A DNA stretch of 64,000 bases from the NCBI GenBank assembly GCA_035539175.1, contig DATLIY010000007.1, positions 992,001 to 1,056,000 of the forward strand. The letters run 5' to 3'. This stretch comes from Acidisarcina sp. (GTDB lineage Bacteria > Acidobacteriota > Terriglobia > Terriglobales > Acidobacteriaceae). This document shows positions 49,010-52,654 of this stretch, piece by piece. The notes below the pieces were generated by a model, which did not search any database, had not been told where the DNA came from, and was given only the letters and a program-made list of their open reading frames with translations. Position 1 is the first letter of the stretch. Each line of letters starts with the position of its first letter. Made by a program: the position numbers and the translations under genes.

Positions 49010-50218
49010 CTAAGCTTCGTCTATCTGGCGGGATTGGGTTGCCCGCCGATAGATCGCCACCGTGAGCAGGATGCCGCCGACACACATGACTGCGGCAAAG
49101 AGAAATATCCCCGAATACCCATAGCCGCTGATGATCAGCCCGGCAATTGGGCCGGTAATCCCCATCGCGAGATCCATGAAGGCGTTATAGAGACCAAGCG
49201 CGGACCCGCTATTCGCTGGTGACACGGTCCTGACCGCCTCCACCCCAAGCGCGGGAAAGACCAGGGCAAAGCCGGTGCCGGTAAGCCCCGCGCCGAGCAG
49301 AGCCACCGACGAGGTCGAGGCAAGCCACAGCAGTACCAGGCCCACCGTTTCCACCGCCAGCGAAACCAGTGCGACCGGGAAGCCTCCCCGGCGTTCGATG
49401 CTGCGAGCAAAAAGCAGCCGGGTGGCGATAAAGCACAGCCCGAAGACCGAGAGCGAGAAGGCGGCGTTGTTCCATTGGCGATTGGCGTAATAGAGCGTGA
49501 TGAAAGACGCGATGGCGCCGAAGCCGACTGTCCCCAGGGCGAGGCTCATGCCATGCGGAAAGACCTTGCCCAGAACATGTTGGAAGGTCAGGCTCTCCCC
49601 CTTGATGACGCGGACAGCTGCGATTTTCGCCGCCAGCACATAGCCCGCGAACGAGAGGATCAGAACCAGCACTGCCAGCGAGCCAAGACCAAACCGGCCG
49701 TTTACCCAGACACCGACGGGCGCTCCGATGGCGAGCGCGCCGTAGGTGGCAATGCCGCTCCAGGAGATCACCTCCGCCGTGTGCTCCTGCCCCACGCGCC
49801 CCATACCCCAGATCGTGACGCCCGTAGCAGTACAGCTTTCCCCTGCTCCCAGCAGAAGGCGGCTGGCCAGAAGCAGCAGCAGGGAGAGAAGCGGGCGATG
49901 GCGCAGCAACGCGGCAAGTAACAGAACGGCTCCGCTGCAGGTGGTGTACACCTGGCCTTTCATCACCGTACGCTTGGCTCCCAACGTGTCGCCCATATGG
50001 CCTGCCCATGGCCGGGTGACCAGCGTGGCAACGTACTGCATGCTGATGGCAAGGCCCGCCATCAACGGCATGTATCCCAGGTCCAGATGGACGAAGGAAG
50101 GCAGCACGGCAAGCTGGATCCCAATGCACAAATAGCAGAGAAAGCTGAGAAAGGCCGTCCTGACAATGCGCCGCGTGAGCGCGATATGCTCCTCGCTCTG
50201 TTGGTCCGCTAACGTCAT
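49010..50218 (-). CDS. MFS exporter, YfcJ/YhhS-like
   Basis: A 402-aa, twelve-helix major facilitator protein. The loop 2-3 motif is RPWAGHMGDTLGAKRTVMKG, cited in part (GHMGDTLGAKR), with helix 5 motif C-like WSGIATYGALAIGAPVG, which is typical of drug/sugar exporters such as YhhS and YfcJ. The second half has IERRGGFPVALVS. It lies on the minus strand between ribD and ribE, ending 12 bp after ribD and starting 48 bp before ribE, so it splits an otherwise continuous riboflavin pair. Substrate is unknown; a link with flavin export is only a guess from position. Confidence 0.88.
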   Translation of the reverse strand: MTLADQQSEEHIALTRRIVRTAFLSFLCYLCIGIQLAVLPSFVHLDLGYMPLMAGLAISMQYVATLVTRPWAGHMGDTLGAKRTVMKGQVYTTCSGAVLLLAALLRHRPLLSLLLLLASRLLLGAGESCTATGVTIWGMGRVGQEHTAEVISWSGIATYGALAIGAPVGVWVNGRFGLGSLAVLVLILSFAGYVLAAKIAAVRVIKGESLTFQHVLGKVFPHGMSLALGTVGFGAIASFITLYYANRQWNNAAFSLSVFGLCFIATRLLFARSIERRGGFPVALVSLAVETVGLVLLWLASTSSVALLGAGLTGTGFALVFPALGVEAVRTVSPANSGSALGLYNAFMDLAMGITGPIAGLIISGYGYSGIFLFAAVMCVGGILLTVAIYRRATQSRQIDEA

Positions 50219-50946: not shown

Positions 50947-51065
50947 TCCTCCTGTCGTGACGCAGCACACAGCAGCGTGTGACATCGCGGTTGCAAGCAA
51001 AGATCGCCGCATCCCATCCAATGCCGGCAGAACTTGCTCAGTTCTCCCGGCAAAGGAGGGCTCTT

Positions 51066-51629
51066 ATGAGATTTCCTCTAGTACTTCGCATCTCTGCCGG
51101 GTTCGCTCTATTCGCGTGCTTCCTTGCAATCGGCGCGCGGTGGATGTCAGCAGAGTCTCCTGATTCGACAGCCATTTCCAATCTGCTGGCACAAGCGAAG
51201 AGCCAGGCAGTGGTTGCCGAGAATGATGCCGCCATACTCGAGTCCTATACGCACCCCGGATCCGCTTGGGAGACACACGCTGCGCAGCTTCGAACCATCG
51301 CGGAACATGTGAACGCCCTGGCCGAAACCGTGAAGCAGTTAAACGGCCTGCGCGAGGAAGGATCTCCCTGGCAGCAGGAGGCAATTTTCCAGATTAATCC
51401 TCTGCTGCGGCATCAGGTCGATCAAATCAACGCAACAATCAAGCACCTGAACGATAACAAAGACCGCATCCATATGCCGGCGTATCGCAACTACACAGCG
51501 GCCGGGCATGAACTCGCAACCCGCACAGCAACCGCTGTCAGCGACTTCGTGGAATATGGCAAAGCAAGATCGAAGGCTGGATCTTTGGAACAGGAGTTGG
51601 AGTTACCCAGCTCTGGTACCGGCAAGTAA
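51066..51629 (+). CDS. Unknown membrane-anchored helical protein, paralogue 1
   Basis: A 187-aa protein starting at ATG 51066, with AGGAGGG 5 nt upstream. An N-terminal signal anchor (about residues 7-29, ending near SAES) is followed by about 150 residues predicted helical: LLAQAKSQAVVAENDAAILESY, AEHVNALAETVKQLN. A strongly conserved block reads EGSPWQQEAI..INPLLRH, and the end is ELPSSGTGK. The next gene is a same-length copy, about 59% identical by my count. I recognise no named family. It resembles a periplasmic helical-bundle protein, perhaps four-helix. Not linked to ribE functionally as far as I can tell. Confidence 0.72.
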   Translation: MRFPLVLRISAGFALFACFLAIGARWMSAESPDSTAISNLLAQAKSQAVVAENDAAILESYTHPGSAWETHAAQLRTIAEHVNALAETVKQLNGLREEGSPWQQEAIFQINPLLRHQVDQINATIKHLNDNKDRIHMPAYRNYTAAGHELATRTATAVSDFVEYGKARSKAGSLEQELELPSSGTGK

Positions 51630-51805
51630 GCGGAGATCTTCTGCCTGCTCGTTCACTATGGCCTGACCCGACCGGAAGCCTCTGCTCCATCTGCCCCCTG
51701 AAGGACGCAACACACTGATTCCTACAAGATCCAAGATGGCAGCAGAAGGGTCGGCATCCCGTTCAAGGAAGACGGACTAAGGGGGGCTTTTGCAAAGGAG
51801 GAATC

Positions 51806-52369
51806 ATGAAATCCCGATGGATAATTCGAATCTCTGCCGGTTTCGTTGCTGTCATGTTTCTGCTGTTCATGGGCTGGCGGTTCACGTCGGCGCAAACGAC
51901 GGATTCGGCGGCGGTTTCCCAACTGCTGGCCGACGCGAGAACCCAGGCAAGGCTCGCGGAAGACGATGCCGCTATGCTTGAATCCTTTACTACGTCCGGG
52001 GTCTCGTGGCAGACACATTCAAGCCAGTTGAACTCCATGAAGGAGCATGTGAACGACTTAGGCAAGACGGTGAAGCAGTTAAATGACATCCGCGGAGAAG
52101 GATCGCCCTGGCAGCAGGAAGCAATCGATCGCATCAATCCCTTGCTGCGCCATATGGCCGATCAGCTTACGACCACCATCAACCACCTGAACAACAACCA
52201 GTCTCGTGTCGGGTTGCCGCCGTATCGCGATTACACGACCGCCAACCACGAGCTCGCATCCAGAACGGCGGCTACCATCAACGACTTTGTGGAGTATGGC
52301 AAAGCCAAAGCAAAAGCTCAGTCCCTCGAGCAGAAGCTTGAACTACCCTCTTCGGGCACGGGTGAGTAG
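51806..52369 (+). CDS. Unknown membrane-anchored helical protein, paralogue 2
   Basis: Also exactly 187 aa and alignable without gaps to the preceding gene, with about 110 of 187 positions identical by hand count. A near-ideal SD, AAAGGAGG, lies 6 nt before the ATG. N-terminal anchor (residues 7-29, ending SAQTT), helical region with LAEDDAAMLESF and MKEHVNDLGKTVKQLND, the conserved block GSPWQQEAIDRINPLLRH, YRDYTTANHELASRTAA, DFVEYGKAKAKA and the ELPSSGTGE tail. Conservation is lowest in the anchor and linker, highest in the centre and end, so the fold and C-terminus seem to be under selection. Function unknown. Confidence 0.75.
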   Translation: MKSRWIIRISAGFVAVMFLLFMGWRFTSAQTTDSAAVSQLLADARTQARLAEDDAAMLESFTTSGVSWQTHSSQLNSMKEHVNDLGKTVKQLNDIRGEGSPWQQEAIDRINPLLRHMADQLTTTINHLNNNQSRVGLPPYRDYTTANHELASRTAATINDFVEYGKAKAKAQSLEQKLELPSSGTGE

Positions 52370-52453: not shown

Positions 52454-52654
52454 TCACACGGAACTGAACTGGGAAGCAAGAATCGTGACGCCGGCGCCTA
52501 TCGCTCGATTCATGCCGGATGCACCATCGACACTGGGCCCCTTGCGGTAGAAGCTGATGAGGAAGACCAGCAACAGCCCAGCGAATAGCACAACACCCGC
52601 CCAGAAAATAAGACTTCCTAATCTTGCGGGTGATGGTTCTGGCCTGACAGCCAT
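52454..52654 (-). CDS. Small membrane protein
   Basis: A 66-aa protein with one clear transmembrane helix (LIFWAGVVLFAGLLLVFLIS, residues about 14-33) and a hydrophobic C-terminus. AAGGAG precedes the ATG by 9 bases, which makes translation plausible. It lies downstream of thrC on the same strand (gap 126 bp) and could be a small stress or transporter-associated protein, but there is no motif to support a name. Short ORFs of this kind can be false; the SD and the hydrophobic pattern are the only evidence. Confidence 0.5.
   Translation of the reverse strand: MAVRPEPSPARLGSLIFWAGVVLFAGLLLVFLISFYRKGPSVDGASGMNRAIGAGVTILASQFSSV

Follow-up and report, generated by a model that had tools for sequence, protein, structure and literature searches.

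A tandem pair of genes for putatively exported four-helix proteins in Acidisarcina, and the stress-gene neighbourhoods of their relatives

The gene pair and its surroundings

The window analysed here, a stretch of 64,000 nucleotides from Acidisarcina sp., contains two adjacent genes, A and B, placed between ribE and a threonine-synthase-like PLP gene (Table 1). The original prediction described two genes of 187 codons with about 110 identical residues and a gap of 176 bp, and the exact figures are 111 identities in a gapless alignment of 187 residues (371 of 564 bases) and a spacer of 176 bp. The strong Shine-Dalgarno sites claimed for both genes are likewise present, with AAAGGAGGG preceding A and AAAGGAGG preceding B. 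Given a dN of 0.30-0.31 against a dS of 1.47-1.58, A and B are constrained genes rather than chance ORFs, and a search of the host genome detects these two family copies only. That both have this length is nearly a family trait: of 55 called members, 15 have 187 residues, more than share any other length, although family starts were re-chosen on the basis of a Shine-Dalgarno site and a set distance to the domain, a rule that narrows the length spread. The ELPSSGTG end singled out earlier is indeed common to A and B, but it is complete in this pair only among 15 aligned members, and its end in B (residues 183-187) is predicted to be disordered, with pLDDT <50. No sigma70-type promoter or terminator exceeding chance was detected around the pair.

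Table 1. Coordinates of features in the window and in the loci of relatives
Feature	Location	Strand	Basis
Gene A, putatively exported four-helix protein, 187 aa; longer-branch paralogue	51066..51629	+	ORF, alignment, tree; fold predicted for B only
Gene B, putatively exported four-helix protein, 187 aa; slower-evolving paralogue	51806..52369	+	ORF, predicted fold, tree
A-B spacer, 176 bp	51630..51805		Sequence
Gene A putative N-terminal export signal, residues 1-29, weak cleavage site MSA/E	51066..51152	+	Inference from sequence
Gene B putative N-terminal export signal, residues 1-29, TSA/Q	51806..51892	+	Sequence; helix 4-25 at low pLDDT; inference
Gene A WQQEAI motif, start of helix 3	51369..51386	+	Sequence, alignment
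Gene B helix 1 of bundle, residues 35-64	51908..51997	+	Predicted structure
Gene B helix 2, residues 68-94; W68 (85% conserved), H71 (97%), N83 (95%)	52007..52087	+	Predicted structure, alignment
Gene B helix 3, residues 101-130, opening PWQQEAI; Q103 (96% conserved)	52106..52195	+	Predicted structure, alignment
Gene B helix 4, residues 138-177; Y140 (89%), N147 (79%), Y164 (94%)	52217..52336	+	Predicted structure, alignment
Borderline sigma54-like site, 86 nt 5' of A, TGACATCGCGGTTGCA; -24 GG not intact	50980..50995	+	Shuffle p 0.0475; weak
Fused member, family domain behind Fasciclin	L075 4090-5034		Pfam, family profile
Fused member, family domain before two BON domains	L074 2079-3161		Pfam, family profile
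Independent tandem or near-tandem sister pair	L101 8504-9758		Tree, locus maps
Independent tandem or near-tandem sister pair	L102 4703-10181		Tree, locus maps
Independent tandem or near-tandem sister pair	L040 4798-6456		Tree, locus maps
Independent tandem or near-tandem sister pair	L057 7382-9045		Tree, locus maps

By Pfam, the ten neighbours of the pair in the window comprise an HD-domain protein, an SRP54-type GTPase (FtsY-like), RibD, an MFS transporter, a lumazine-binding protein (RibE-like), a small unmatched ORF, the PLP enzyme, a HAD hydrolase, a transglycosylase and an LPG-synthase-like membrane protein. Pfam identifies no stress family among these ten, and none of the four families tested around relatives (vide infra) occurs, among the matches listed, within 5 kb of the pair. 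The small ORF (52454-52654, minus strand, 66 aa), located between B and the PLP-enzyme gene, appears by eye to include one membrane span.

A congeneric genome (G019) has these genes in collinear order but lacks both the MFS gene and the A/B pair, and the small ORF is unmatched there. The slot between ribE and the PLP-enzyme gene in that genome measures 852 bp and contains no family fragment detectable by tblastn; gain of the pair here and loss there are not distinguishable. The MFS transporter gene (49010-50218, minus strand), which occupies the ribD-ribE interval and is absent from that position in G019 (L116), is a second presence/absence gene.

A predicted four-helix family without a name

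Neither A nor B reaches any Pfam or NCBIfam cut-off. Their best expectation values are 0.014 in Pfam (SCIN) and 0.00052 in NCBIfam (TIGR04527, with 19.8 bits where 125 are required), and the best Pfam value across 15 members is 0.00049 (DUF948, four members). The CHASE3 profile gives weak scores in four of the 15 members, the best with E 0.0016, and B is unlisted at E<=0.1. A search of PDB sequences returned no confident match to the protein family, viral contigs, scanned once, yielded no relative, a plasmid search gave no match at E<=1e-5, and no earlier description of the family, including its WQQEAI motif, was found in the open-licence literature. The label of an unknown family therefore still applies, as the Pfam, NCBIfam, PDB sequence and structure searches returned no confident match with an established role; the protein family is real and so far unnamed in the libraries and literature searched.

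Homology to YfdX, prompted by gene adjacency in relatives, was rejected: profile-profile comparison with four acidobacterial YfdX proteins gave an hhalign probability of 0.5%, A and B have no match to YfdX (PF10938) at E<=10, and no YfdX match occurs anywhere in the host genome. A ferritin-like or rubrerythrin diiron bundle was also rejected, as there is no ExxH motif and no glutamate among the columns that are at least 60% conserved over 73 rows. A cyanobacterial match (L045), with 39% identity across only 38 residues, was attributed to chance.

AlphaFold2 was run on a single paralogue, B, with 15 aligned sequences. The resulting model (mean pLDDT 87.2, pTM 0.75) has a low-confidence N-terminal helix followed by a regular four-helix bundle and a disordered C-terminal tail. 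Ten-residue means of pLDDT are 92-98 over residues 31-170 and 81 for residues 171-180, with the helices mostly at 94-98. Foldseek detected no match to this model in the PDB at E<=0.001 (best E 0.016); designed bundles, sensor bundles and FAT domains head its list. A VIA structure comparison likewise has a designed bundle as its top row, with a Z of 15.3, a value of a kind common among helical bundles, and a viral structure library contained no match at E<=0.001. The four-helix fold predicted for B is too generic to point to any function.

The most conserved columns in an alignment of 73 rows are H71 (97%), I125 (96%), Q103 (96%), N83 (95%) and Y164 (94%). A conserved binding face had been proposed, but in the model the WQQEAI motif forms the start of helix 3, and a helical-wheel calculation places H71, Q103, N147 and Y140 within 20 degrees of the hydrophobic helix face. 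Because these conserved polar residues face the hydrophobic side, a buried network or pocket is suggested rather than an outer face, and by this calculation the four residues may form it. The N-termini, previously read as differing anchors, are better read from their sequences as export signals, ending MSA/E in A and TSA/Q in B. Among 53 members, a loose signal-peptidase-I-like pattern is present in 48, and a lipobox-like string in one. The envelope location suggested by the original prediction is supported by the signal sequence and by relatives fused to FAS1 and BON domains.

Relatives, their neighbours and sigma54-like sites

Whole-genome search detected relatives in 33 of 200 genomes from the host's taxonomic family, and in 54 of 298 genomes of its order when the best 11 candidates per genome were scored, six of them from a second taxonomic family (both counts include the host). 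A phylum-wide profile search, in which the best eight candidates per genome were scored, detected relatives in three of 396 genomes, all from the host's taxonomic family and including the host; the share of other taxonomic families within those 396 is unstated, so this count does not prove absence elsewhere. Of 14 named matches, 13 are labelled Acidobacteria, Acidobacteriaceae, Acidobacterium or Terriglobia, and one is the weak cyanobacterial match. The suggestion that the family is lineage-specific is thus borne out within the genomes sampled, where matches are confined to the host's taxonomic family and one other of the same order.

In a tree of 73 rows, A and B are sisters (support 99/89) with branches of 0.49 and 0.21 respectively, which supports the tandem duplication proposed for them. 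Sister pairs are also found in L057, L040, L101 and L102, the last with its genes 4 kb apart, and because the two genes of each such pair are each other's sisters, local duplication has occurred independently on several occasions. In L060, L066, L068 and L070, by contrast, the paired genes do not group as sisters. A start-less family copy beside a transposase-like ORF in L061 (8985-10390) may have been cut by an insertion. Genes were called with a purpose-built ORF caller, which truncated a number of starts and failed to call certain family genes (e.g. in L050, L063 and L064), and repeats of a named contig (L034, L036, L042, L043, L089 and L092-L094) were left out.

The neighbours of relatives are rich in stress-related genes, a linkage that the original prediction, which had recommended a check for partner genes, had not foreseen. 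Matches from the host's taxonomic family were used, the weak G040 and G168 were dropped, and 43 genes were merged into 37 loci from 31 genomes. Within 5 kb, a BON gene was found at 10 or more loci (0.91 expected) and a Usp gene at eight or more (0.94 expected), these two counts being lower bounds (BON matches were incompletely listed for 18 of the 31 genomes) set against expected values that come from all domain matches; rubrerythrin was found at seven loci (0.17 expected) and YfdX at four (0.03 expected). The four families were picked after the maps had been inspected. Shared ancestry among the rows makes every p value optimistic. At least 23 of the 37 loci have a gene of one of these families within 5 kb. 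Against a stress-module reading, 14 of the 37, including the window pair, have none of the four among the matches listed. At the level of genomes, YfdX is present in 10 of 33 family-positive genomes versus 6 of 167 others (p 1.6e-5, optimistic because of shared ancestry).

In representative loci, Pfam confirms as neighbours YfdX, DUF308 (HdeD-like), Hsp20, DsbA-like, DUF3300, DUF4136, Ysc84, BON, rubrerythrin, DUF2231 and Usp proteins, M48 and M50-CBS peptidases, an Na/H exchanger, a P-type ATPase and sigma54 activators. A YfdX gene directly adjoins the family gene in L065, L066, L068 and L070, and in L105 both YfdX and BON genes are close. The order in L068 and L070 is YfdX, family gene, DUF4136, DUF308, family gene. 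Some relatives are themselves fused to envelope-associated domains, as judged by Pfam for the FAS1 or BON part and by the family's own profile for the remainder. FAS1 (Fasciclin) precedes the family domain in one chain in L073, L075, L076 and L108, with a BON-like gene adjoining, and in L074 the family domain lies ahead of two BON domains.

Upstream regions of relatives are enriched in sigma54-like sites, which the original prediction had likewise not foreseen. An initial scan used 300-bp regions; scoring used 12 positions with a fixed GG-N10-GC core, from a consensus that we take to be the accepted one, over 70 distinct upstream regions (three near-identical ones of 73 were removed). Sites scoring at least 9/12 occur in 17 of the 70 regions versus 14 of 308 control regions taken from intergenic DNA at the same loci (p 2.0e-6), and the corresponding counts are 25 versus 48 at 8/12 or better (p 2.4e-4) and 10 versus 6 at 10/12 or better (p 8.3e-5), each of these p values being optimistic because of shared ancestry. 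Shuffling the same upstream regions 300 times gave a mean of 2.3 sites and a maximum of 7. Ten of the 17 family sites, versus three of the 14 control sites, lie 55-80 nt before the start. The rubrerythrin genes of the modules have a site of at least 9/12 in three of eight cases, and none was found at this threshold upstream of neighbouring genes for Usp (0 of 8, with 5 of 8 at 8/12), YfdX (0 of 4) or P-type ATPase (0 of 7). Five loci (L048, L060, L080, L099 and L101) have an NtrC-type activator with a sigma54 domain next to a family copy. Counting against a sigma54 reading, 53 of the 70 family upstream regions have no site of at least 9/12, and the G[AS]FTGA sigma54-contact motif is present in three of 13 clustered neighbour response regulators; by Pfam scan, the regulator in L066 is of the LuxR type.

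The host genome has a sigma54 gene. Within 160 bp of A or B, no GG-N10-GC site exceeds 5/12; this is also the best score in the A-B spacer, where a TGGCAG at 51737 has no -12 half. The borderline candidate upstream of A (Table 1) has no counterpart upstream of B in the same scan. Elsewhere in the host, about 1 Mb from the pair, a run of genes for an exported rubrerythrin, a DUF2231-like protein (named by BLAST only, with no Pfam match), a histidine kinase and an NtrC-type activator (L122 8995-13021; C7, ~42-46 kb) reproduces the set that adjoins a family gene in G143 (L048), and the stretch examined contains no family copy. A and B look like module-type genes now living apart from their module, and since the pair stands alone, about 1 Mb from what remains of it, the regulation of A and B is probably now different.

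Proposed role, alternatives and known systems

Because relatives are so often found among stress-survival genes, A and B probably help to protect the envelope under stress. The overall reading, which we regard as evenly balanced between right and wrong, is that the two are tandem duplicates from an unnamed exported four-helix family, known to date from a single acidobacterial order, whose members belong to envelope and oxidative-stress modules and give protection of the kind attributed to YfdX. In such a module, a stress signal would reach the kinase, and its NtrC-type partner together with sigma54 would switch on the family gene. The product would then be exported and lose its signal, and the mature, compact helical bundle could protect periplasmic or envelope components much as the chaperone-like YfdX may do.

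The predicted bundle might instead be a free-standing sensor or ligand-binding domain whose polar core binds a small molecule and which passes the signal to a membrane kinase. The position of H71, Q103, N147 and Y140 within 20 degrees of the hydrophobic face would suit such a core, chemoreceptor and kinase sensor bundles appear among many other bundles in the Foldseek rows, the weak CHASE3 scores (four of 15 members, best E 0.0016) point the same way, and histidine-kinase-like genes lie close to several relatives. However, no Foldseek match reaches E<=0.001, the designed bundles at the top indicate a generic fold, and many mapped relatives have no kinase gene nearby; a sensor is a rather unlikely account. 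The direct FAS1 and BON fusions, and the BON genes within 5 kb at 10 or more of the 37 loci, lend themselves to yet another view, of an envelope adaptor that joins envelope layers or surface adhesion proteins with BON and FAS1 and for which the stress linkage is secondary. The fusions are limited to few, divergent members (one four-row FAS1 clade and one BON fusion among 73 rows), though, and adhesion leaves the linkage to rubrerythrin, Usp and YfdX unexplained, so that this role, too, seems unlikely.

It could also be argued that A and B are ordinary small secreted proteins carried in fast-shuffled accessory islands, and that the stress linkage reflects island mobility rather than shared function. 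The patchy presence of the family (33 of 200 genomes), the presence/absence difference at the ribE site, the GC3 of A (0.61) and B (0.69), which lies below that of five measured flanking genes (0.72-0.78), and the 14 of 37 loci without a tested neighbour among the matches listed all fit this explanation. Yet hitch-hiking does not readily account for linkage to four stress families, for the fusions or for the positioned sigma54-like sites, and the viral-contig scan and plasmid search gave no relative, and the explanation is likewise unlikely.

Acidobacteria are abundant in soils, and to our knowledge little has been learned about their envelope stress resistance. Under the protective reading, this unnamed family offers a testable subject, with a motif (H71, WQQEAI, Y140 and Y164), a predicted fold, a candidate regulator and partner genes, and lineages that have single, tandem and fused versions allow comparison. 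The A/B pair itself is ordinary; it is the association of its relatives with stress modules and sigma54 that is worth testing. A more specific version of the reading, doubtful at this stage, is that the family is an acidobacterial counterpart of YfdX: a hitherto unrecognised class of periplasmic stress chaperone unrelated to it in sequence, governed in its home module by a kinase, an NtrC-type activator and sigma54, repeatedly duplicated in tandem, fused to BON or fasciclin domains and, as here, dispersed from its module.

Among known systems, the periplasmic four-helix sensors (the chemoreceptor ligand-binding domain and CHASE3) are four-helix bundles, a generic fold class that the B model would fit, but A and B are without a second membrane helix or a fused signalling domain, and the sequence scores are weak and scattered. 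YfdX (PF10938; acid response, tLST), a periplasmic and largely helical protein, is stress-linked like the putatively exported and predicted helical family, and family genes adjoin it in four loci. Unlike a YfdX homologue, the family shows no sequence relationship to that protein that profile comparison can detect (0.5%), and in the samples searched it comes from one bacterial order.

Published studies report chaperone (anti-aggregation) activity for the YfdX-family protein STY3178, calling YfdX chaperone-like (PMC4941729), and assign YfdX to the tLST cell envelope stress module, where the YfdX and HdeD genes occur together in the locus (PMC8290217). The loci of some relatives resemble that module in having YfdX, DUF308 (HdeD-like), Hsp20, a thioredoxin-fold protein or a cation/proton exchanger, although no single relative's locus was found with the whole tLST gene set, and the acidobacterial loci add rubrerythrin, Usp, BON, DUF4136, DUF3300 and two-component genes. 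While neither YfdX nor HdeD is among the ten neighbours of A and B in the window, the two are found together beside relatives in L068 and L070.
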